Source: a virus. Taken from it: a stretch of DNA of 38,126 nucleotides. The stretch spans positions 1 through 38,126 of IMG/VR virus record IMGVR_UViG_3300010045_000005. One strand, written 5' to 3'. Below the pieces are notes generated by a model, which saw only the letters and a list, made by a program, of their open reading frames with translations, was not told the origin of the DNA and made no database searches. This document shows, piece after piece, positions 1 through 38,126 of the stretch. Both the position numbers and the translations under genes were made by a program. Position 1 is the first letter of the stretch. The number at the start of each line of letters is the position of its first letter.

Positions 1-15
1 CCACACCCCGTGCGC
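1..15. repeat. Terminal direct repeat, copy 1 (circular overlap)
   Basis: The first 15 bases, CCACACCCCGTGCGC, recur as the last 15 bases (38112-38126). Joining the two copies restores one uninterrupted methyltransferase frame, so I read this as the overlap of a circular assembly and not as a biological end. The unique circle would be about 38,111 bp. This fits a circular intracellular form or circularly permuted headful-packaged DNA. Confidence 0.85.
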
Positions 16-597
16 GTCCCGGATCCACTCTTCCTGAGTAACCCATCCGCCCGGATTCTTGTCGCGGTCGTAGAGACACGGCACGGGCACGCTCTCGCCA
101 GGCTTCTGGAAAATCATCACGTAGTCATTGACCGCCGGCGCGAGGTTGCGCCCATTGCGACGGCCAGTCTCGAACATCAGGCAATGAAGGTTGAGCCGCT
201 TGGCGATGATCTGGGGATTCTTCGGAATGACGAACTCGCCTTTCCACTCGAAGCCGCCGGCCTCGAATAGCTCGACGGTCGCGCCGCGAAAATCACGCCG
301 CCCCATATAGCCGTGCTGATTCTGATAGCGTAGAAGTTGCTGAATGTGGACGCAGACATTGCAGCCCGGCTTCATTACGCGAAAGAGCTGCTCTATGCAG
401 AAGCGCATGTGCAGGCCGAAGTAGCCGGCGCGAAGGTCTGTGCCGTCCTGATTATTGCCGACGTCTTCGGTCTTGCCCGAATACATAAAGAGGGCGCCGA
501 AGGGAATTGACGTGACGGCCAGGTCAACGGATTCCGGCTCGCAGCGTTCGGCCATGCCGGTCACGCAATCTTCGTTATGGATAGTCGCGTCTGTCAT
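1..597 (-). CDS. DNA methyltransferase, N-terminal two-thirds (gene crosses the circle junction)
   Basis: Adenine-N6 or cytosine-N4 DNA methyltransferase, residues 1-199 of 307; the rest is at 37785-38126. It should transfer a methyl group from S-adenosylmethionine to phage or host DNA. Motif IV is seen as TSIPFG at residues 29-34 and the SAM-binding motif DPFMGIGST at 247-255, so the order is IV before I, as in beta-class enzymes. The usual SPP[YF] is SIPF here; related phage enzymes that I recall carry SVPF or SIPF too, so it need not be dead. The ATG at 597 overlaps the helicase stop (ATGA), which argues for coupled translation. It is followed, with a GTGA overlap, by the DndC-like gene. 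The target base and sequence cannot be read from the DNA. The family call is strong. Confidence 0.9.
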   Translation of the reverse strand, partial: MTDATIHNEDCVTGMAERCEPESVDLAVTSIPFGALFMYSGKTEDVGNNQDGTDLRAGYFGLHMRFCIEQLFRVMKPGCNVCVHIQQLLRYQNQHGYMGRRDFRGATVELFEAGGFEWKGEFVIPKNPQIIAKRLNLHCLMFETGRRNGRNLAPAVNDYVMIFQKPGESVPVPCLYDRDKNPGGWVTQEEWIRDAHGVW

Positions 598-2186
598 GCG
601 CTCGTTAAGCCTTTCAGCGCCTCGCAGTAATATCGCTCCTGCGTCTCGGCGTCCTGTTCAAAATTCTCTTTCTTGCGTAAGACGTTTTCCAGAATCAAGC
701 CTTCGAGTTGTGGGATGAAGGGCACATGCACGCGCACGCTTTTCGTCTGCCCGTAGCGCACGGCGCGCCGGATGGCCTGATAGAGTTGCTCGTAAGAATC
801 ATTCAGCCCGGAGAAGATCATCGAAGTGCAGAACTGGAAGTTCATGCCGAAGCCGAGCATGGATGCCTTCGAGATGAGGGCCTGCGTGCGCCCGTGCCGG
901 AAGTCTTCAAGAATCAACTCGCGCTCTTCCGGCTTCGTGCTGCCTGTGAGCACGTCGTAAAGCACGGCGGATGGGCGCAGGAGCTGCGCGAGGATCGCGG
1001 TCTCTTCATCGAAGAGCGTCCAGATGAGCACCTGATGCCCGGCGGCGACTTCATCACGGATGAGGCGCGCGACGAACTCGGGCTTCGCGGACGGCACGAC
1101 GCGCGCGACCCGCTTGCCGGTGGCCGTATCGTAGAGAAAGCCTTTGGCGATTTGTGAAAACTTCGTCCGCTCGGTGACGCCCATGCGCTTCGCGCCGAAG
1201 AGGTCAACAGAGCCTTTGCGCGCGACGGCGTGCGCGAGTTCTAGCTGCTCGCTCACGGGTTCAAGTTTGTGCTCGAAGTAGATGGGCGCTGGAATGTCTT
1301 TGAGATTATCGGCCCAGCCGTAGCGCGCCGGGTTGCGCAAGTATATTGACCACGACGCCATGAAGCGATAGAAGCCAGCGCGCGCGTGCGGCTTCACCTT
1401 CCAGTTGCCCCGCTTATCGCGCGTGAAAAACGTCCAGAGGATTTCGCCTTCGGTGCGCAGCTTCTCAAGAAACGAAGCCTGCGAGGCATATTCCATGATG
1501 TCATTCGGGGCAGGTGTGGCCGTGCAGGATAGCTTGTATTCAACGCCGCGGGCACTCTTAATCAGATTCCACTTGATGACACCGCCGCCGGATTTCAGGA
1601 TGCTGGATTCGTCGGCGACGAGACCGGCGAGATAGCGAAACTCAGGGATGATTCCGTCCGACAGCTTTTCATAGTTGACGATGCCAAGCGCTGTCCCTTC
1701 GCCTCTGACCCATGCAATCAACTCTGCACGGGTCTTGATCTTCTCGACCGTCAGTGTGTCGCTGTAGAAGTGGACAGCCTCTTCGCAGGTCTGAGGAATG
1801 ACGGCGAGGGGCGACAGGATAAGCACGCGCCCGCCGGTGCGCGCCATGACGTGACGCGCGTACTCTAAAAAGATGGCCGTCTTGCCGAGTCCGCAGTCCG
1901 CGAAGACGGCGTAGCGCTTGGCGTGCAGCGAGGTCTCGACGATGAAGCGCTGATAGTCGAAGAGATGATCGGCGAGTGCGAGATTTGAGTTGCGCTCTGG
2001 CGCGTCCGTGATGCCGAGCAAGCGGGCGAACCGCGCCGGCGTCGTGATGCGATAGGTCGAGCGCTCTTCGTCAAACTCGACCTGGCTTTCAGGGAGCGTC
2101 TTGCAGCGTAGGAATAGCTCATAGGCTGTAAGGTCGAAGCGCTCGAATTGGACGGACGCTATTTCGTTGTGGATTGAAACTTCCAT
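594..2186 (-). CDS. SNF2/DEAD-like superfamily 2 helicase
   Basis: A 530-aa ATP-dependent DNA helicase or translocase of superfamily 2. The Walker A motif is GLGKT in ADCGLGKTAI, motif II is DESS (in place of DEAH), motif III is SCTATPAPN, and motif VI is QAIRRAVRYGQ near the C-terminus, so both RecA-like lobes are present. I chose the ATG at 2186 because a GGAG sits seven bases upstream and because longer starts would run into the gene before it. It overlaps the methyltransferase start by four bases. In many phages such a helicase is encoded beside a DNA methyltransferase. It may serve replication, recombination or DNA modification; the sequence does not decide which. It belongs to the leftward operon. 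Confidence 0.88.
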   Translation of the reverse strand: MEVSIHNEIASVQFERFDLTAYELFLRCKTLPESQVEFDEERSTYRITTPARFARLLGITDAPERNSNLALADHLFDYQRFIVETSLHAKRYAVFADCGLGKTAIFLEYARHVMARTGGRVLILSPLAVIPQTCEEAVHFYSDTLTVEKIKTRAELIAWVRGEGTALGIVNYEKLSDGIIPEFRYLAGLVADESSILKSGGGVIKWNLIKSARGVEYKLSCTATPAPNDIMEYASQASFLEKLRTEGEILWTFFTRDKRGNWKVKPHARAGFYRFMASWSIYLRNPARYGWADNLKDIPAPIYFEHKLEPVSEQLELAHAVARKGSVDLFGAKRMGVTERTKFSQIAKGFLYDTATGKRVARVVPSAKPEFVARLIRDEVAAGHQVLIWTLFDEETAILAQLLRPSAVLYDVLTGSTKPEERELILEDFRHGRTQALISKASMLGFGMNFQFCTSMIFSGLNDSYEQLYQAIRRAVRYGQTKSVRVHVPFIPQLEGLILENVLRKKENFEQDAETQERYYCEALKGLTSA

Positions 2187-2229
2187 TATATGTCTCCGAG
2201 CCATTGCTGGCCCGACTTGGCCGCCTTGC

Positions 2230-2976: not shown

Positions 2977-3720
2977 TCAGTCGGCTTTAATGAAGACGCC
3001 CTTGTCGGTGAGGCGATATTTGACGTTCGGCTCAACGCCGTTCTCGTTGATGTAAGCCACAGAGAAGCGATAGCGCGAGCCGTCCCACCATCTGATAATG
3101 AGGCTGCCGCCCTCGCCAGCGGTCGCAGTGCCGCCCTCGCCAGCGGTCGCAGTGCCGTAATCGCCAGCGGTCGCAGTGCCGCGATAGCCAGCGGTCGCAG
3201 TGCCGTAATCGCCAGCGGTCGCAGTGCCGCGATAGCCAGCGGTCGCAGTGCCGTAATCGCCAGCGGTCGCAGTGCCGTAATCGCCAGCGGTCGCGCTTTC
3301 GTGGTCGCTCGCGACCACGAAAGCGCCGACGACCCCCTGTAATCCAGCCTTGTGCTTGAAGAGGAAATCGGTCGCAGATTTGCGATCCCCGCAGTGAATG
3401 ACTTTACCGGCCCTGAACTTGATTTTGCCTTCGAGGTCAACGACGCCCTTCTTTTGATCTACTTCGACAATGAGCCAGCGCGCGTCTTCTTCCCAGTTGA
3501 GAAGGCCGCCGCTTCCGATGCCCCACCCGAGCGCGTGCAGGCCGCCGCCGCACACTGGCCGCTGATCCCAGTCGGGCGCTTCTACGCTCCCACGCTTCGG
3601 CCACACGAAGCCGCCGTACGCGCGCATATCCTTGCTCACTGTCTTGAGCGCCAGTAGGGTCTCTGTTTTCGATGGCGCACGCTTCACAGCGCGCGTTTTT
3701 GCTTGAGTTGCAGTTGACAT
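2977..3720 (-). CDS. DUF7666-like protein with eight TATAG octapeptide repeats
   Basis: A 247-aa protein. Residues about 50-120 hold a globular domain with the CGGGLHA motif and a WLIVEV strand, typical of what I remember as DUF7666. Residues 142-205 are eight head-to-tail octapeptides of the form TATAGDYG, TATAGYRG or TATAGEGG. Regular Thr/Ala/Gly repeats like these may fold as a stacked beta-solenoid. A C-terminal domain of about 40 residues follows. The start has a good AAAGGA site. This family is common in phage genomes but has no established role. The repeats are almost identical at DNA level, so copy number probably varies between relatives. Confidence 0.75.
   Translation of the reverse strand: MSTATQAKTRAVKRAPSKTETLLALKTVSKDMRAYGGFVWPKRGSVEAPDWDQRPVCGGGLHALGWGIGSGGLLNWEEDARWLIVEVDQKKGVVDLEGKIKFRAGKVIHCGDRKSATDFLFKHKAGLQGVVGAFVVASDHESATAGDYGTATAGDYGTATAGYRGTATAGDYGTATAGYRGTATAGDYGTATAGEGGTATAGEGGSLIIRWWDGSRYRFSVAYINENGVEPNVKYRLTDKGVFIKAD
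3106..3297 (-). repeat. Eight 24-bp tandem repeats inside the DUF7666-like gene
   Basis: Eight consecutive 24-bp units encode the octapeptides of residues 142-205. Most are identical even at third codon positions, and differences are concentrated in the two codons after GGC (GATTAC, TATCGC, GAGGGC). That pattern points to recent expansion by slippage or unequal recombination. The array is in frame with a length divisible by three, so changes in copy number keep the gene open. Confidence 0.9.
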
Positions 3721-3766: not shown

Positions 3767-4063
3767 TCAGGCGGCGACGGCGCGGGCGCGCAGTTCCATC
3801 ATTGTGACGATATGGTGGCCGACCGATGCGGCGACATGGACGCAGGCCAACCCGTGCTGATTCGCGGGGCAGGGCGTGGCGTCTGGACGCTGGCAGGTGG
3901 CGAGGCGCTGGCCGTTGACGAAAAGGAATTGAACGCGGTTCATGCCGCCTTCGGAGTTCCGCACGAGGTAGCGGCGCGGCTCGACGGGGCGGACGAGCGG
4001 TTTTAGTTGACGGGCTTTCTCGATTTGATTCTTGATCTGAGCGGCGGATTTCAGTATCAGCAT
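3767..4063 (-). CDS. SWIM-type zinc-finger-like small protein
   Basis: A 98-aa protein, the first gene after the leftward promoter, with an AGGAAGGA site before its ATG. Residues about 50-80 read as a strand-rich segment (RVQFLFVNGQ) followed by Cys-x7-Cys-x8-Cys-x-His (TCQ to CVHVAAS). This resembles the CxC...CxH ligand pattern of SWIM domains, which bind DNA or proteins, but the first Cys pair is spaced wider than the classic CxC. Being first in the operon, it could be an early regulator or host-interaction protein. The SWIM assignment is a pattern match only. Confidence 0.65.
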   Translation of the reverse strand: MLILKSAAQIKNQIEKARQLKPLVRPVEPRRYLVRNSEGGMNRVQFLFVNGQRLATCQRPDATPCPANQHGLACVHVAASVGHHIVTMMELRARAVAA

Positions 4064-4107
4064 TTGGGTGTCCTTCCTGTTGGCGCTTGATTGGGCCGAC
4101 GAGAGGG

Positions 4108-4136
4108 AGGGTACACCAATAGGATACCAATGTCAA
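4108..4136 (-). promoter_or_regulatory. Predicted leftward early promoter (pL-like)
   Basis: On the minus strand a perfect TTGACA (4136-4131) is followed after 17 bp by TACCCT (4113-4108), a weak -10 that keeps T, A and the final T. The expected start near 4101 leaves a leader of about 38 nt before the ATG at 4063. The rightward promoter at 5096-5124 has the same TTGACA-N17-TACC layout. Confidence 0.65.
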
Positions 4137-4148
4137 CTAGTAGAATAC
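4119..4148 (-). promoter_or_regulatory. Left operator, inverted copy of the right operator
   Basis: This 30-bp segment, read on the minus strand, matches 5084-5113 on the plus strand at 27 of 30 positions. It contains the -35 box and two direct half-sites, GTATTCTA and GTATCCTA, 21 bp (two helical turns) apart. Being shared by both divergent early promoters, it is the natural binding site of the repressor and of the Cro-like protein. Confidence 0.7.
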
Positions 4149-4156
4149 ATTTAGGC

Positions 4157-4188
4157 GAAAAAAATTTAAGGCTCGAAAATGAGACCTT
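4157..4188 (-). terminator. Intrinsic terminator of the repressor-ImmA transcript
   Basis: On the minus strand an AAGG-CTC / GAG-CCTT hairpin (seven pairs with one bulged base, six-base loop) is followed by AAATTTTTTT. It lies 37 bases downstream of the ImmA-like stop codon and just upstream of the leftward promoter, so it would keep repressor transcription from running into the early operon. Confidence 0.75.
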
Positions 4189-4224
4189 CTGGGCAGGGCT
4201 TTGAACGTGAAAAGTGGTTGGCTG

Positions 4225-4644
4225 TTAAATCTTAAATCGCTCTAATACTTTCCTCCGAAACGCCAGTATGTCTTTCGGGAAGTCGTGAAGTTCGCCCTGA
4301 TAAATCCGGTACAGGGTAGGCTCGTCAAGGACAGAACAGACGGCCAACACATTTGCCTCAGATTCAATTTTACTGACCGTCCCTTTGGTAAAGCAGCGCA
4401 GCCCCGGTGGGTGTTGTAAATGATGCACCATCTCATGCCAGCCTGCGTACCAGAGCCGCACGCCGGACAATCTGCTGCTTAAAGCGATGACGGGATAACC
4501 TTCGCAATGAAAGTACATTCCCGGAGTTTTCATCTTCGGTCGAACGATTTGAATCTCTTGATGCTCACACGCTGCTTCAAAATCGCTAAACGTTAAGGCC
4601 CGCTGATTCCAGCCGAGCAACTGTAATAAGCGAGGTATATTCAT
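4225..4644 (-). CDS. ImmA/IrrE-like zinc metallopeptidase
   Basis: A 139-aa predicted zinc protease. The catalytic motif HEMVH is at residues 70-74, with a likely third ligand in KIESEANVLAV (Glu96), the pattern of the ImmA/IrrE family (COG2856). Its ATG overlaps the stop of the repressor gene (TAATG), so the two are translationally coupled. In ICEBs1 and many Firmicute phages the protease ImmA cleaves the repressor ImmR to trigger induction; the same role here is inferred from the motif and the gene pair. It is short but within the family range. A terminator follows at 4157-4188. Confidence 0.85.
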   Translation of the reverse strand: MNIPRLLQLLGWNQRALTFSDFEAACEHQEIQIVRPKMKTPGMYFHCEGYPVIALSSRLSGVRLWYAGWHEMVHHLQHPPGLRCFTKGTVSKIESEANVLAVCSVLDEPTLYRIYQGELHDFPKDILAFRRKVLERFKI

Positions 4645-5012
4645 TATTTCCCCTTTTTAATGCGTTTCAGTGCGTCTTTAGCCATGTCCCATGCGATCTT
4701 AAAATCACGTCTTTGTTGCGGCCTCAGCTTCTCAACGTCCTTAAACATCAGAGCAAATTCGCTTTTGGCAAACCCTTCTGGCAAAGAGGCTTCATCAGGC
4801 CGGATAAACCCAAGCGACACAAGCGGCTCCAACAGAGTTGTGCCCAGCGCTCTTGCGAAAGCCTCAATCGTGGCGAGTGGCGGGATCGAATCGTCGTTTT
4901 TATTCTCCCACTTACTGACATAAGCCTTCTCAAAGCCGGCCTTCTCAGCTACAGCTTCCTGCGTCATCCCGACGCTTTCCCTCTTCTGTTTTAGCCACTC
5001 TGAAAAAGTCAT
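4644..5012 (-). CDS. XRE-family HTH repressor (CI/ImmR-like)
   Basis: A 122-aa cytoplasmic regulator. Residues 3-60 form an XRE helix-turn-helix (TQEAVAEKAGFEKAYVSKWEN is the core), and the rest is a charged C-terminal part without the Ser/Lys protease dyad of LexA/CI repressors. That fits regulation by the coupled ImmA-like protease instead of RecA-stimulated self-cleavage. I chose the ATG at 5012; an in-frame ATG at 5033 is possible. Longer readings add a low-complexity tail that runs through the operator. It lies between two inverted operators and is transcribed away from the Cro-like gene, so it most likely maintains lysogeny by blocking both early promoters. Confidence 0.88.
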   Translation of the reverse strand: MTFSEWLKQKRESVGMTQEAVAEKAGFEKAYVSKWENKNDDSIPPLATIEAFARALGTTLLEPLVSLGFIRPDEASLPEGFAKSEFALMFKDVEKLRPQQRRDFKIAWDMAKDALKRIKKGK

Positions 5013-5044
5013 AGACGATCCGTGCCCCCTCATTGTCAACCAAG

Positions 5045-5051
5045 AGGATAC
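5045..5051 (-). promoter_or_regulatory. Isolated operator half-site near the repressor start
   Basis: AGGATAC on the plus strand (GTATCCT on the minus strand), followed by TAG, repeats the half-site found in both 30-bp operators. It lies about 33 bp upstream of the repressor ATG, where binding could autoregulate the repressor gene. This is a single short match and so only suggestive. Confidence 0.4.
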
Positions 5052-5083
5052 TAGCGGCAGCGGTGGAATGGTAGGATTGTGGG

Positions 5084-5113
5084 GTATTCTAGTAGTTGAC
5101 ATAAGTATCCTAT
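5084..5113 (+). promoter_or_regulatory. Right operator
   Basis: This is the plus-strand copy of the 30-bp operator (27 of 30 identical to the reverse complement of 4119-4148). It contains half-sites GTATTCTA at 5084 and GTATCCTA at 5105. A further pair, GTATC-N7-GATAC (5105-5121), forms an inverted repeat that runs into the predicted -10 box, where a bound repressor would exclude RNA polymerase. Confidence 0.7.
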
Positions 5114-5124
5114 CGTGATACCGT
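5096..5124 (+). promoter_or_regulatory. Predicted rightward early promoter (pR-like)
   Basis: A perfect TTGACA (5096-5101), a 17-bp spacer and TACCGT (5119-5124). The expected transcription start falls at about 5131-5132, directly at the ATG of the Cro-like gene. That gene has no Shine-Dalgarno sequence, so its mRNA may be leaderless. Confidence 0.6.
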
Positions 5125-5131
5125 GTCCGGC

Positions 5132-5353
5132 ATGACAGATTTGACGCAGACCCAAATAGACGCAAACAAGCTGAAAGAGGCGCGGGAGAGGAAGGGTTTA
5201 ACCCAAGCCGAGGTGGGCGCGGCGGTGGGTGTCCAGAAAGCCGCCATATCGAAAATCGAATGCGGTATTGGACTCCCATCCGCTGAAACCCTCGCGCGGC
5301 TCTGTGCGCTCTATGAAGTCGGCATTACCGAGCTAACCACACAAGCGCCTTAA
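5132..5353 (+). CDS. Cro-like XRE helix-turn-helix regulator
   Basis: A 73-aa protein made up almost wholly of one XRE helix-turn-helix domain (residues 14-65; core TQAEVGAAVGVQKAAISKIE). It diverges from the repressor gene across the right operator, the position of Cro in lambdoid phages. By analogy it should bind the same operators and push the switch toward lytic growth. A GTG at 5123 would add three residues, but it lies inside the predicted -10 box. The ATG at 5132 lacks a ribosome site and coincides with the predicted +1. Confidence 0.85.
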   Translation: MTDLTQTQIDANKLKEARERKGLTQAEVGAAVGVQKAAISKIECGIGLPSAETLARLCALYEVGITELTTQAP

Positions 5354-5456
5354 CCGCCAACCATTCTTAAACTTTTTCCGTCGGTCGGGGAAGGCTCTAT
5401 TTCTGGCCCAAAAGCACTAGGGTAGCCAATGTCGCACTGCCAAACACCACACACCA

Positions 5457-5723
5457 TTACGGTTCGCCAGGATTCTCATCACGTGGCGGCGGCTGTCTGC
5501 CAGCGCTCTCTTGAACTCCAAAGGCGTGCCGCAAAAGAAAATCAGTCTGCATCTGCTCATAGCGCCGCGCGACCTCTACAGCGTCTGCGTGCGTGGTTGA
5601 GGCGGTTGTCTCGATTACCAAAACGGCCAGAGCGTCAATAGAGGCGCGCAACTGAAGCACGAGCTGCAAGATTTCGGGCAGGGTCTTGTTGGCGTCAATA
5701 GTGAATTTGAATGGTTCTGACAC
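5457..5723 (-). CDS. Hypothetical protein on the strand opposite the right early operon
   Basis: An 88-aa protein with a GTG start preceded by AAAGGAG. It is helical and Leu/Ala-rich in the middle (LPEILQLVLQLRASIDALAVLVIE) and polar and Pro-rich at the end. It has no recognised family. It runs against the Cro-like and CII-like genes that flank it, so it may be expressed in the lysogen or act as an antisense gene in the switch. The 103 bases between the Cro-like stop and this gene contain no feature I can support. Confidence 0.55.
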   Translation of the reverse strand: MSEPFKFTIDANKTLPEILQLVLQLRASIDALAVLVIETTASTTHADAVEVARRYEQMQTDFLLRHAFGVQESAGRQPPPRDENPGEP

Positions 5724-6276: not shown

Positions 6277-6486
6277 ATGGCAAAACTTGTCGGCAAGGTC
6301 AAGTGGTTCAACGAGGCTAAGGGCTACGGCTTCATTCAGCACCCGAACGGCGGCGATGTCTTCGTGCACTACAGCGCGATTGCGGGCAAGGGCTACCGCT
6401 CGCTCAAGGAAGGCGACGAGGTTGAGTTCGAGATCGAGCAGAGCGAGAAAGGGCCGCAGGCGGCGCGAGTGCGCGTGGTCGAGTAA
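6277..6486 (+). CDS. CspA-family cold-shock protein
   Basis: A 69-aa single-domain cold-shock protein with both nucleic-acid-binding motifs: RNP1 as KGYGFI (residues about 15-20) and RNP2 as VFVHY (about 28-32). The full family length is present. Such proteins melt RNA structures and bind single-stranded nucleic acids in the cytoplasm. It follows the CII-like gene by 20 bases. Directly downstream is a strongly structured, gene-free segment (6509-6597), a plausible RNA partner or autoregulatory target, although this link is only positional. Confidence 0.95.
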
Positions 6487-33708: not shown

Positions 33709-33726
33709 GATAGTGCCCTGATGGGG
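33709..33726 (+). repeat. 18-bp direct repeat left of attP
   Basis: GATAGTGCCCTGATGGGG recurs with one change at 33954-33971. The pair brackets the tRNA-derived core at 33832-33894 on either side, as arm-type integrase or excisionase sites do. It is also only two bases after the last late gene. Confidence 0.55.
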
Positions 33727-33831
33727 TCGGTATGTGCCCACACCTGCTAAGATGAGTCGTGCTTTGGCGACCACGCGGGTAGTAAACTCCTAACAGATGG
33801 TTGATGGGCCGGGGTTAGGCGGGGGTGTAGG

Positions 33832-33894
<63 letters not shown>

Positions 33895-33953: not shown

Positions 33954-33971
33954 GATAGTGCCCCGATGGGG
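33954..33971 (+). repeat. 18-bp direct repeat right of attP
   Basis: GATAGTGCCCCGATGGGG matches 33709-33726 at 17 of 18 bases and lies 4 bases from the integrase stop. It contains a small GCCCC-GAT-GGGGC palindrome. Likely role: an arm-type site of the recombination complex. Confidence 0.55.
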
Positions 33972-33974
33972 CCT

Positions 33975-35123
33975 TCAAACAATTTCAACAGCCTCGGCCC
34001 CTACTTTCCGCGCCGTCGGAAAGGTCAAAAGCCGCCCCTTCTCCAGTTTGGACACAGCATCCCTTAACCTCTGCGGCACGGCGCGGGCGTAGCCCTTCGT
34101 CACTCGTGTTTCTTTGGTCTCGCCTTCCGGCACGGAGTGGCCCAGAAGATCGGCGATGTCGTAGGCGTGAACATTTGCCGCGCGAAGCCTCGTTGCGAAT
34201 GTCCGCCTGAGATCGTGGAAATGGAAATCATCTAGCTCGGCGTCCTTTACGGCGCGCTCGAAGCAGTGAAGCAGTTGCCTGCGACGCCTACCCGTGCGCT
34301 TCGGGTCAAAGATAAATTCCTCGTCGGGCGCATCCTGTCTCAGCCTCTGGAGAATGCCTTGCGCTTTAACAGTCAGCGGTACGGTTCGGGGCCTTTCGGT
34401 CTTCGTCTGCCATACGTTTAAGGCATCTCCCATCTGATCGCGCCACCTGGCGTTAAGCATCTCGCCCAGCCTGAGACCAGTCTCCAAATCAAGAGCGGCC
34501 AACGCGGGCAGATGCTCTCCATATTTCGAGAGCTGTTCAAAGAGCCTCTCTTCCTCGTCGTCTTCATACTGACTCAGGTATCTGTCTCTGGGTTCCGGCT
34601 CGCGTAGTTTCTTGACCCGTGAAACAGGGTTGGAGTCTAAGAGCCAGTTTCTAACTGCCAGCGACATAATCCCCGACAGCACTTGAAGGCAGCGGTTGAC
34701 AGTGGCGGGACTGTTGGCCCGCTTGTATTTATTCTGCTCCCGCCGCAGCTCCGACTTTAGTTTTTCGATAAGAATAGGAGTGATGTCACGCAAAGGGCAG
34801 TTGCCGAAAAACTTCTTGAGCCTCGCCGCCCTCTGCATAACGTCCTTCCAGCTCCGCAGGTTCTCTTTGGCCCATGTCTCGTAAGCGCCGTCAACAAAAT
34901 CCCCAAAGCGGGTAATGGCGCTCGCCGGGCTGTACTTGCGGTCGAAGATGGCCTGGCGGATTTGGGTCTCGACCTGTTCGGCCTGCTTCTGAGTCCTCGC
35001 CTCCGGTACGGCACGCTTCACATGGTGACGACGCAGCTTGAATTCGACTTGCCAGATTGCGTCTTCCCAGTGCGGATGATCGCGCTTGATGCGCTTCCCC
35101 TTGTATTGTCTAAAAACGGCCAT
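33975..35123 (-). CDS. int: Tyrosine recombinase (phage integrase)
   Basis: A 382-aa integrase that recombines attP with the host tRNA-Ser gene. The ATG at 35123 follows AAGGAGAGCAGTC. Catalytic residues in this numbering: Arg218 (ETGLRLGE), Lys241, His303 and Arg306 (HDLRRTFA), His329 (LLGHS) and the nucleophile Tyr345 (KGYARA). The N-terminal 60 residues are a beta-rich arm-binding domain (KGKRIKRDHPHWEDAIWQVE), and residues 80-170 are the core-binding helices. It is the last gene of the leftward operon, next to attP, with an excisionase-like gene just upstream. Confidence 0.95.
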   Translation of the reverse strand: MAVFRQYKGKRIKRDHPHWEDAIWQVEFKLRRHHVKRAVPEARTQKQAEQVETQIRQAIFDRKYSPASAITRFGDFVDGAYETWAKENLRSWKDVMQRAARLKKFFGNCPLRDITPILIEKLKSELRREQNKYKRANSPATVNRCLQVLSGIMSLAVRNWLLDSNPVSRVKKLREPEPRDRYLSQYEDDEEERLFEQLSKYGEHLPALAALDLETGLRLGEMLNARWRDQMGDALNVWQTKTERPRTVPLTVKAQGILQRLRQDAPDEEFIFDPKRTGRRRRQLLHCFERAVKDAELDDFHFHDLRRTFATRLRAANVHAYDIADLLGHSVPEGETKETRVTKGYARAVPQRLRDAVSKLEKGRLLTFPTARKVGAEAVEIV

Positions 35124-35196
35124 GACTGCTCTCCTTCTGAGCGCAGCCGCCAAAGCGACGCGAACTCTATCACAGGTAAATGTAAGGGGTGAAGGC

Positions 35197-36603: not shown

Positions 36604-37788
36604 TCATTCTCCGAAGATAAGTGGTTGCATCGAACCGTCCCGGTAAATTTCGGGCCGCATCACGTCGCCGCGGTCTTCGTCTCCTGTCCATTTATTCGGC
36701 CAGGTGTTCGCGTCAATCAGTTCGAGGATGCGTAGCTCTTCCTCTTCATTGATGAGCGAGACTTCCGGCATGCCCTGAGAGCGCGCACCTTCGTTCACTT
36801 CCAACTGGATTGCTAAGACCTCTGCAAGTCCCGCGCGACGAGCTTCCATTGTGAGCGGCCCGCGCCGCCCCTGATTTGCTGCGAGCTGGCCGTCTGCGTT
36901 CGTCTCCATGTATTTGCGCAGGCGGTTATGAAACTTCGTCAGTTCGGCGTAGAGCGGGCGCAGGCGCTTTAAGGGCGAGAGGTATTGCCAGCGTGGTATG
37001 CGCAGCACGGTGTCGAGCGCCGTGTCTTTACTGGCAAGATTACAACCGACGCAGCCAGTTCGGGCGTTGATCTCCTGTGCTTCGTCGCCGCCATAGGCTT
37101 CGGCAATTTCGGTCGTGGGGAAGCCGAGGTCGGGAGCATAGAACATCAGCCAGTCCCAGACGTGGCAGACGCGCCAGTGAAGAATAGGCGCGAGCGTGTC
37201 GGCGATCCTTTCGGGTGTGGCTTCCTGAAACCATCCCTGACCGCACTCTGCCCCGTCACGGCTGCACGAGAGCGCGATCCGGGCGTCGCGCTGTGCCGAT
37301 TCGCCGAGGCGCACGCCTGTCAGCATTAGCAACTTCTCGCCCGTGCGCTCGCGCAGATCCTTCAGCGCATTCTCCATCGGCTCGATTTTTAGCTGTGCCG
37401 TGCACCATCGAAAGCGATTCTTCGGCGGCGGTACGCCTCGCCCGAACATATAGACGAAGAAACGCTCGTCTAACTCTGGCAGGACAACATGCGCCTCATA
37501 GCCGCGGTCGCGTATGGCGTTGATGATGCCCATCGCAGAGGCTTGGAGCGGCGGCAACTCCATCCGTGTGTCAGCGTAGAGCACGGTGAGAGACTCAGGC
37601 TTTGCTATCTGTCCGCCCTCGATTAAATCTATGGTGGCCGTTACTGCCGCGCTCGAATCCTTGCCGCCGCTGTATGCGATGGCCCAGTGGCGATAGCGCT
37701 CACCGTAGGCGCGCAGAGAATCCGCCGTCAGAGCGAGCGACTTTTCCAGCGTCAGGCGCTGGTCTTCAAATAGGCTCTGGTTTCTCAC
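36604..37788 (-). CDS. PAPS-reductase/DndC-like PP-loop protein
   Basis: A 394-aa protein of the adenine-nucleotide alpha hydrolase (PP-loop) superfamily. The PP-loop is SGGKDSS at residues 40-46. FRWCTAQLKIEPM (Cys129), LTGVRLGES, Cys182, and TGCVGCN (Cys246, Cys249) follow the order seen in DndC and phage PAPS-reductase proteins, in which Cys residues hold an Fe-S cluster and the PP-loop activates a substrate with ATP. DndC takes part in DNA phosphorothioation; many phage relatives have no proven function. The GTG start overlaps the methyltransferase stop (GTGA). No DndA, D or E partner is present. See the related finding. Confidence 0.85.
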   Translation of the reverse strand: MRNQSLFEDQRLTLEKSLALTADSLRAYGERYRHWAIAYSGGKDSSAAVTATIDLIEGGQIAKPESLTVLYADTRMELPPLQASAMGIINAIRDRGYEAHVVLPELDERFFVYMFGRGVPPPKNRFRWCTAQLKIEPMENALKDLRERTGEKLLMLTGVRLGESAQRDARIALSCSRDGAECGQGWFQEATPERIADTLAPILHWRVCHVWDWLMFYAPDLGFPTTEIAEAYGGDEAQEINARTGCVGCNLASKDTALDTVLRIPRWQYLSPLKRLRPLYAELTKFHNRLRKYMETNADGQLAANQGRRGPLTMEARRAGLAEVLAIQLEVNEGARSQGMPEVSLINEEEELRILELIDANTWPNKWTGDEDRGDVMRPEIYRDGSMQPLIFGE

Positions 37789-38126
37789 AGTGCGACCCCT
37801 TCTTCTATCAGACTGAACAGCGAGTGATCGTCTGACGCATTCAGCCGGCGCGCCAGTTCGACATTCCTGACGGCCTGCCGGTAATAGCTCTCCTTCAGCT
37901 CGAAGCCGACAGCGCTTCGCCCCTCGCGCACGGCCACAAATGCGGTCGAGCCGATTCCCATAAACGGGTCAAGCACTGTCTCGCCGGGATTCGTGTAGAG
38001 CCGCACGCAACGCCTGATCACTTCGAGCTGGAGCGGGCAGACGTGCTTCTCTTCCTGATTCTCTCTTGCCGACTGATAGCCTTCGAGCACGTCAGTCTCG
38101 CGAATGTCGCGCCACACCCCGTGCGC
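37785..38126 (-). CDS. DNA methyltransferase, C-terminal third
   Basis: Residues 194-307 of the methyltransferase that begins at 597; bases 38112-38126 duplicate positions 1-15. It contains the SAM-binding motif LDPFMGIGST (246-255) and CPLQLEVIRRCVRLYTNPGE before it, the typical approach sequence in this group. Reading continues without a shift across the joined ends, in the same codon register. An internal GTG at 38117 is not needed as a start. Confidence 0.9.
   Translation of the reverse strand, partial: AHGVWRDIRETDVLEGYQSARENQEEKHVCPLQLEVIRRCVRLYTNPGETVLDPFMGIGSTAFVAVREGRSAVGFELKESYYRQAVRNVELARRLNASDDHSLFSLIEEGVAL
38112..38126. repeat. Terminal direct repeat, copy 2 (circular overlap)
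   Basis: CCACACCCCGTGCGC is identical to positions 1-15. Together with the frame continuity of the methyltransferase gene, this shows that the molecule is circular or circularly permuted. Confidence 0.85.

Follow-up and report, generated by a model that had tools for sequence, protein, structure and literature searches.

The genome of an uncultured bacterial virus from an environmental sample carries two nearly identical 30-mers in inverted orientation, each overlapping a predicted outward-facing promoter, and between them a short XRE repressor gene followed by the gene for an M78 (ImmA/IrrE) metallopeptidase. We analyzed this arrangement in the 38,126-nt IMG/VR record IMGVR_UViG_3300010045_000005 (the whole stretch is called the window here). 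The region is probably a mirrored pL/pR switch of the lambda type, belonging to a temperate tailed phage whose repressor is inactivated by the M78 protease. A preliminary description of this DNA had proposed such a hybrid of lambda-like pL/pR architecture and ImmR/ImmA-type induction, and the proposal is supported by the mirror scores, by an M78 profile match over the cutoff and by a repressor without an S24 domain. A lambda-like mirrored switch joined to an M78 protease combines known parts in a new way and was absent from the 14 ImmA phages tested. The two-sided lambda operator architecture and repressor self-cleavage, which are usually taught together, are separated here. If the reading is true, two classical designs of the lysogeny switch are united in one phage.

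Mirrored promoters and candidate operators

The inverted 30-mers (4119-4148 on the minus strand and 5084-5113 on the plus strand) are identical at 27 of 30 positions. This count agrees with that of the preliminary description and lies above all of 150 dinucleotide shuffles of the region 3800-5400, in which the best inverted 30-mer scored 18 to 22. In a repeat search, the arms reached 39 nt with 82% identity (4110-4148 and 5084-5122). When the whole 38 kb was searched for inverted 30-mers matching at 25/30 or better, with arms 300 to 3,500 bp apart, this single pair was found.

Both copies contain the promoter sequence TTGACA-N17-TACC[GC]T (Table 1). The previously described core of this sequence, TTGACA-N17-TACC, was thus recovered on both sides, although the -10 hexamers are weak (3/6 matches to TATAAT, at positions 1, 2, and 6) and a promoter scan of the window listed neither pL nor pR. 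A search for the repressor's own promoter gave weak candidates only, none of them recognizable as a promoter.

The window contains exactly four instances of the motif GTATYCTA, two in each 30-mer copy at a distance of 21 bp. These occurrences had been described as half-sites, which holds, and we refine them to the better halves of 17-bp imperfect palindromes with the consensus GTATYCTA-N-TAGRATAC. The four resulting sites (OR1, OR2, OL1, and OL2) outscore every other 17-mer of the 38 kb, at 13/16 each compared with 11 for the next best, on a consensus that was derived from the scored sites themselves and with one good half in each dyad. When the mirror half was slid over spacers of 0 to 13 bp, the optimum was a spacer of 1 bp, with 5/8 matches in each of the four sites versus 2.1 expected (chance of about 0.001, counting three independent sites). 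Direct-repeat operators and dyads with wide spacers were ruled out, as a spacer of 1 bp alone fits all sites. The centers of OR1 and OR2, like those of OL1 and OL2, are 21 bp apart, or two helical turns, which would place the bound dimers on one face of the DNA.

A possible fifth site before the repressor start codon repeats the GTTGACA and GTATCCT of OR1 and OL1. It is weak on its own, with several chance sites in the window also reaching 11/16. Any -10 box at the proper distance from its TTGACA would run into the start codon of the repressor, and we therefore read it as a possible operator for autoregulation. A third in-phase site centered at 5071 was rejected, its score of 9/16 being at chance level. 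The operator pattern had no match in the viral contigs searched.

Table 1. Coordinates of the predicted switch elements and of the genes in the leftward and rightward units
Feature	Positions	Strand	Details
pR (predicted)	5096..5124	+	TTGACA-N17-TACCGT; -35 at 5096-5101, -10 at 5119-5124, TGn ahead of -10; predicted start ~5131; consensus match only
pL (predicted)	4108..4136	-	TTGACA-N17-TACCCT; -35 at 4136-4131, -10 at 4113-4108; predicted start ~4101; consensus match only
OR1 (candidate operator)	5084..5100	+	GTATTCTA-G-TAGTTGAC; 13/16; overlaps pR -35, including its TTGAC
OR2 (candidate operator)	5105..5121	+	GTATCCTA-T-CGTGATAC; 13/16; pR spacer and start of -10
OL1 (candidate operator)	4132..4148	-	GTATTCTA-C-TAGTTGAC; 13/16; overlaps pL -35, including its TTGAC
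OL2 (candidate operator)	4111..4127	-	GTATCCTA-T-TGGTGTAC; 13/16; pL spacer and -10
Possible fifth operator, OR3-like	5035..5051	-	GTATCCTC-T-TGGTTGAC; 11/16; ~22 bp before repressor start codon
XRE repressor	4644..5012	-	122 aa; HTH PF01381, 5.8e-13; short helical C-terminal part
M78 (ImmA/IrrE) metallopeptidase	4225..4644	-	139 aa; PF06114, 3.8e-5, 23.9 bits versus a cutoff of 22
Candidate terminator of the repressor-protease transcript	4157..4188	-	bulged 7-bp stem, 4188-4168; T7 run to 4157
Cro-like HTH protein	5132..5353	+	73 aa; PF01381, 1.4e-14; first gene of rightward unit
First gene of pL unit	3767..4063	-	98 aa; good ribosome-binding site, AGGAAGG
DUF7666 protein, pL unit	2977..3720	-	between the 98-aa gene and the helicase in unit order
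Helicase, pL unit	594..2192	-	PF00271, PF00270
DNA methylase, N-terminal part	1..597	-	runs on past the presumed circular join, from 38126 downward
DNA methylase, C-terminal part	37785..38126	-	boundary approximate
PAPS-reductase-family protein, pL unit	36604..37788	-	PF01507, 6.5e-8
Tyrosine integrase	33975..35153	-	PF00589, 9.6e-22; last gene of leftward unit

Repressor-protease pair and proposed mechanism

As the preliminary description had stated, the repeats enclose an XRE repressor and a coupled HExxH protease. Both genes are real, and the start of the protease gene overlaps the repressor stop codon by one base (TAATG). Pfam matches of the repressor were to HTH families only, with no S24 self-cleavage domain. 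By profile and predicted fold, its nearest relatives include CapH and DdrO: the best PADLOC profile was capH (1.4e-8, residues 1 to 103), and the nearest PDB match of the predicted fold, a weak one, was full-length DdrO (6jq1; E value of 1.2e-3, TM of 0.5), with CapH fifth. The C-terminal half of the model consists of predicted helices of lower confidence. We assign the protease to the M78 family on its profiles and motif; besides the Pfam match, it matches the PHROG 87 metallo-protease (1.8e-10), and its metal-site motif is intact (HEMVH at residues 70 to 74 and ESEAN at 94 to 98). An AlphaFold model made without an alignment was unusable (pLDDT of 41). Downstream of the protease gene, a terminator had also been described, of which the stem and the T run are present; the folding energy (-7.1 kcal/mol) is no better than that of shuffles (z of -0.41), and we regard the terminator as plausible.

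Over 30 HTH residues, the Cro-like protein and the repressor are 47% identical, and their recognition helices follow one pattern, KAx[VI]SK. The ATG of the Cro-like gene lies about 1 nt from the predicted pR start, so the cro message is probably leaderless.

Several partners of M78-type peptidases have been studied. DdrO (PMC8072749) and CapH (PMC10904395) are both substrates of such peptidases. IrrE cuts DdrO between Leu106 and Arg107 in the C-terminal domain, which abolishes dimerization (PMC8072749), and PprI and CapP are activated by ssDNA (PMC10904395). In Listeria, MpaR, which is related to the protease of phage A118, cleaves CI-like repressors during induction; its cleavage of phage repressors is stronger under SOS conditions, and it acts also on another prophage (PMC6872733). 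In Staphylococcus aureus, phage immA counteracts immR-mediated immunity (PMC12323379).

In the switch as we picture it, XRE repressor dimers would bind the 17-bp operators, two at each outward early promoter, and would block RNA polymerase at pL and pR, leaving the phage dormant. Under stress, signaled by ssDNA or free zinc in studied relatives, the cotranslated M78 peptidase would become active and cut the C-terminal dimerization part of the repressor, and pL and pR would then fire together. As a guess from the DdrO site, the cut could fall at Leu96-Arg97 of the repressor. Transcription from pR would serve cro and the replication and virion genes, and transcription from pL would serve the leftward unit up to the integrase. 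The Cro-like protein, whose recognition helix resembles that of the repressor, would occupy the repressor's operators in its turn and hold the lytic state. Operator binding and the transcription starts are predictions from the DNA sequence; repressor cleavage and its trigger we infer by analogy with the studied relatives. Looping of the DNA by repressor bound at both operator regions, which lie 973 bp apart, is possible. We give an even chance to the fuller version of this reading, in which a switch of lambda architecture, possibly with a loop around the repressor-protease pair, is induced by an ssDNA- or zinc-sensing metalloprotease and not by RecA-driven self-cleavage.

The switch may also be real without the M78 protein being its inducer. 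The protein could be a passenger (part of a toxin-antitoxin pair or of a CapP-like defense) or could act on the repressors of other prophages, and removal of the repressor would then fall to an antirepressor or to host proteases. XRE-M78 pairs are indeed also known as CBASS regulators and as proposed toxin-antitoxin pairs, and both the capH profile match and the second prophage target of Listeria MpaR fit this explanation. We nevertheless consider it unlikely, given the overlap of the two genes, the adjacency of repressor and protease also in A118, PSA, and staphylococcal phages, and the fact that in the studied cases the protease cleaves or counteracts its partner repressor. Furthermore, the proteins examined included no recognizable CBASS component; the neighbors examined are phage genes.

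Two other explanations concern the repeats themselves. The pL copy might be a weak or decayed duplicate of one functional regulatory region, with the leftward genes driven from elsewhere, which would agree with the single intergenic operator region of the known ImmA phages and with the weakness of both -10 boxes. The 27/30 identity and the two intact operators at pL, the good ribosome-binding site at the first leftward gene, and the same two-sided arrangement in lambda make this improbable. Still harder to credit, and in our view very improbable, is that the 30-bp inverted repeats serve recombination, bounding either an invertible segment or a small transposon with the repressor-protease pair as its cargo. 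It is true that inverted repeats of 30 to 39 bp flank a 0.9-kb gene pair and that a tyrosine recombinase is encoded elsewhere in the genome. However, both copies are predicted promoters with operator dyads, an additional operator-like copy lies at 5035-5051, and the promoters would still point outward after an inversion. Among the proteins examined, neither a serine invertase nor a transposase was recognized, and the integrase adjoins a tRNA gene, its presumable site of action.

Confirmation of the proposed mechanism would mean that the architecture of control and the mode of induction can be exchanged as modules. The cassette of about 1 kb from an uncultured phage, comprising repressor, protease, and operators, would also suit a comparison with lambda in bistability and induction threshold.

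Genome organization and relatives

The record is classed as linear, and its ends share 15 bases (CCACACCCCGTGCGC, window positions 1-15 and 38112-38126). When the DNA methylase ORF is joined across the ends, it matches PF01555 over positions 1 to 220 of 221 (6.2e-23). Most probably, the genome closes into a circle of 38,111 bp, and it is this circularity that ties the leftward promoter to the integrase unit. The order of the predicted leftward unit is pL, the 98-aa gene, the DUF7666 gene, the helicase, the methylase, the PAPS-reductase-family gene, and the integrase, which lies about 7 kb away, behind the second mirrored promoter. The 98-aa protein had no Pfam family and no convincing PHROG match. 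The rightward unit begins with cro and continues with the terminase, portal, capsid, and tail genes to 33706.

A complete tRNA-Ser(CGA) gene (33808-33894) adjoins the integrase gene and is flanked by an 18-bp direct repeat, GATAGTGCCC[TC]GATGGGG, with 17/18 matches (33709-33726 and 33954-33971). This region is likely attP. Within the DUF7666 ORF, a 24-bp tandem repeat of 7.6 copies (3113-3294) encodes an 8-residue repeat resembling TATAGDYG/TATAGYRG. The early rightward genes include one for a cold-shock-domain protein (6277-6486; CSD, 7.6e-29). Just after cro and antisense to the early rightward unit, an 88-aa ORF (5457-5723, minus strand) has a good ribosome-binding site and had no PHROG match.

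Relatives of the terminase at 50 to 60% identity were spread over environmental viral contigs and Chloroflexi and Verrucomicrobia assemblies, which leaves the host phylum uncertain. The repressor, the protease, and the first pL gene had no close relatives in the viral contigs, and the protease had none in named phages or genome contigs. Relatives of the repressor came from three Arthrobacter phage records only and matched residues 11 to 79. A protease query against 400 and 388 genomes of Chloroflexi and Verrucomicrobia, the phyla of the two terminase-bearing assemblies, returned nothing in a search without a positive control, and 22 viral records with a related terminase had no detectable M78 gene. 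Two Chloroflexi prophages encode small M78-type HExxH proteins (L067, 1378-1737; L068, 1408-1755); these matches were ruled out as a switch, being sited in the structural gene cluster.

Comparison with known switches

To compare the mirrored arrangement with those of other phages, we took the 600 bp behind the protease (in lambda, behind rexB) together with the cro-repressor intergenic region and scored the best inverted 30-mer match between the two. The window scored 27/30 and lambda oL/oR scored 24/30, whereas 14 named repressor-ImmA phages scored 19 to 21, within the range of shuffled maxima (19 to 22), and thus had no mirrored operators. These phages are those reached by two query proteins plus a few named records, not an exhaustive set. 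In the 14 and in Campylobacter phage CJLB-5, which was considered for layout only, the repressor-protease pair is followed on the same strand by zero to four genes and then the integrase.

The ImmR/ImmA modules found in phages and ICEs of Gram-positive bacteria (A118, PSA, phietaviruses, TP901-1, and ICEBs1) resemble the window in having a short XRE repressor, an overlapping or adjacent M78 peptidase, and a divergent Cro-like gene. The window differs from the ImmR/ImmA phages looked at both in its mirrored second promoter and in the position of its integrase. DdrO/IrrE of Deinococcus and CapH/CapP of CBASS likewise pair a small XRE repressor, with a helical C-terminal part, with an M78 partner, but they are not phage switches, and IrrE has an extra GAF-like domain, which the 139-aa protein of the window is too short to accommodate.

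By fetching relatives of the helicase, we reached a 49.5-kb viral contig, IMGVR_UViG_3300046780_001007 (L095/L108), whose helicase is 34% identical. A CI-like repressor gene lies there inside mirrored operator-like repeats (24/30, 1.1 kb apart; TAACGTTGACGCTA at 1356-1385 and 2480-2509 of L108), with a divergent Cro-like gene and with start codons abutting the outer repeat copies on both sides. It differs in the repeat sequence and in its longer repressor (155 aa), and its repeats enclose no M78 gene. A two-sided switch is thus seen again in a phage that is only distantly related, and the M78 pair resembles a module inserted into such an architecture, an evolutionary order that we infer from this one comparison.

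Lambda itself shares with the window a repressor operon inside two mirrored operator-promoters, outward early promoters, 17-bp operators with one better half, a Cro-like gene first on the right, and an integrase that ends the left unit (here by gene order). The operator sequences are unrelated, and lambda has three operators per side where the window has two clear ones, with operator regions about 2.4 kb apart instead of 973 bp. Finally, the self-cleaving repressor of lambda corresponds to a repressor without a self-cleaving domain, and in place of rexA and rexB stands the M78 protease.
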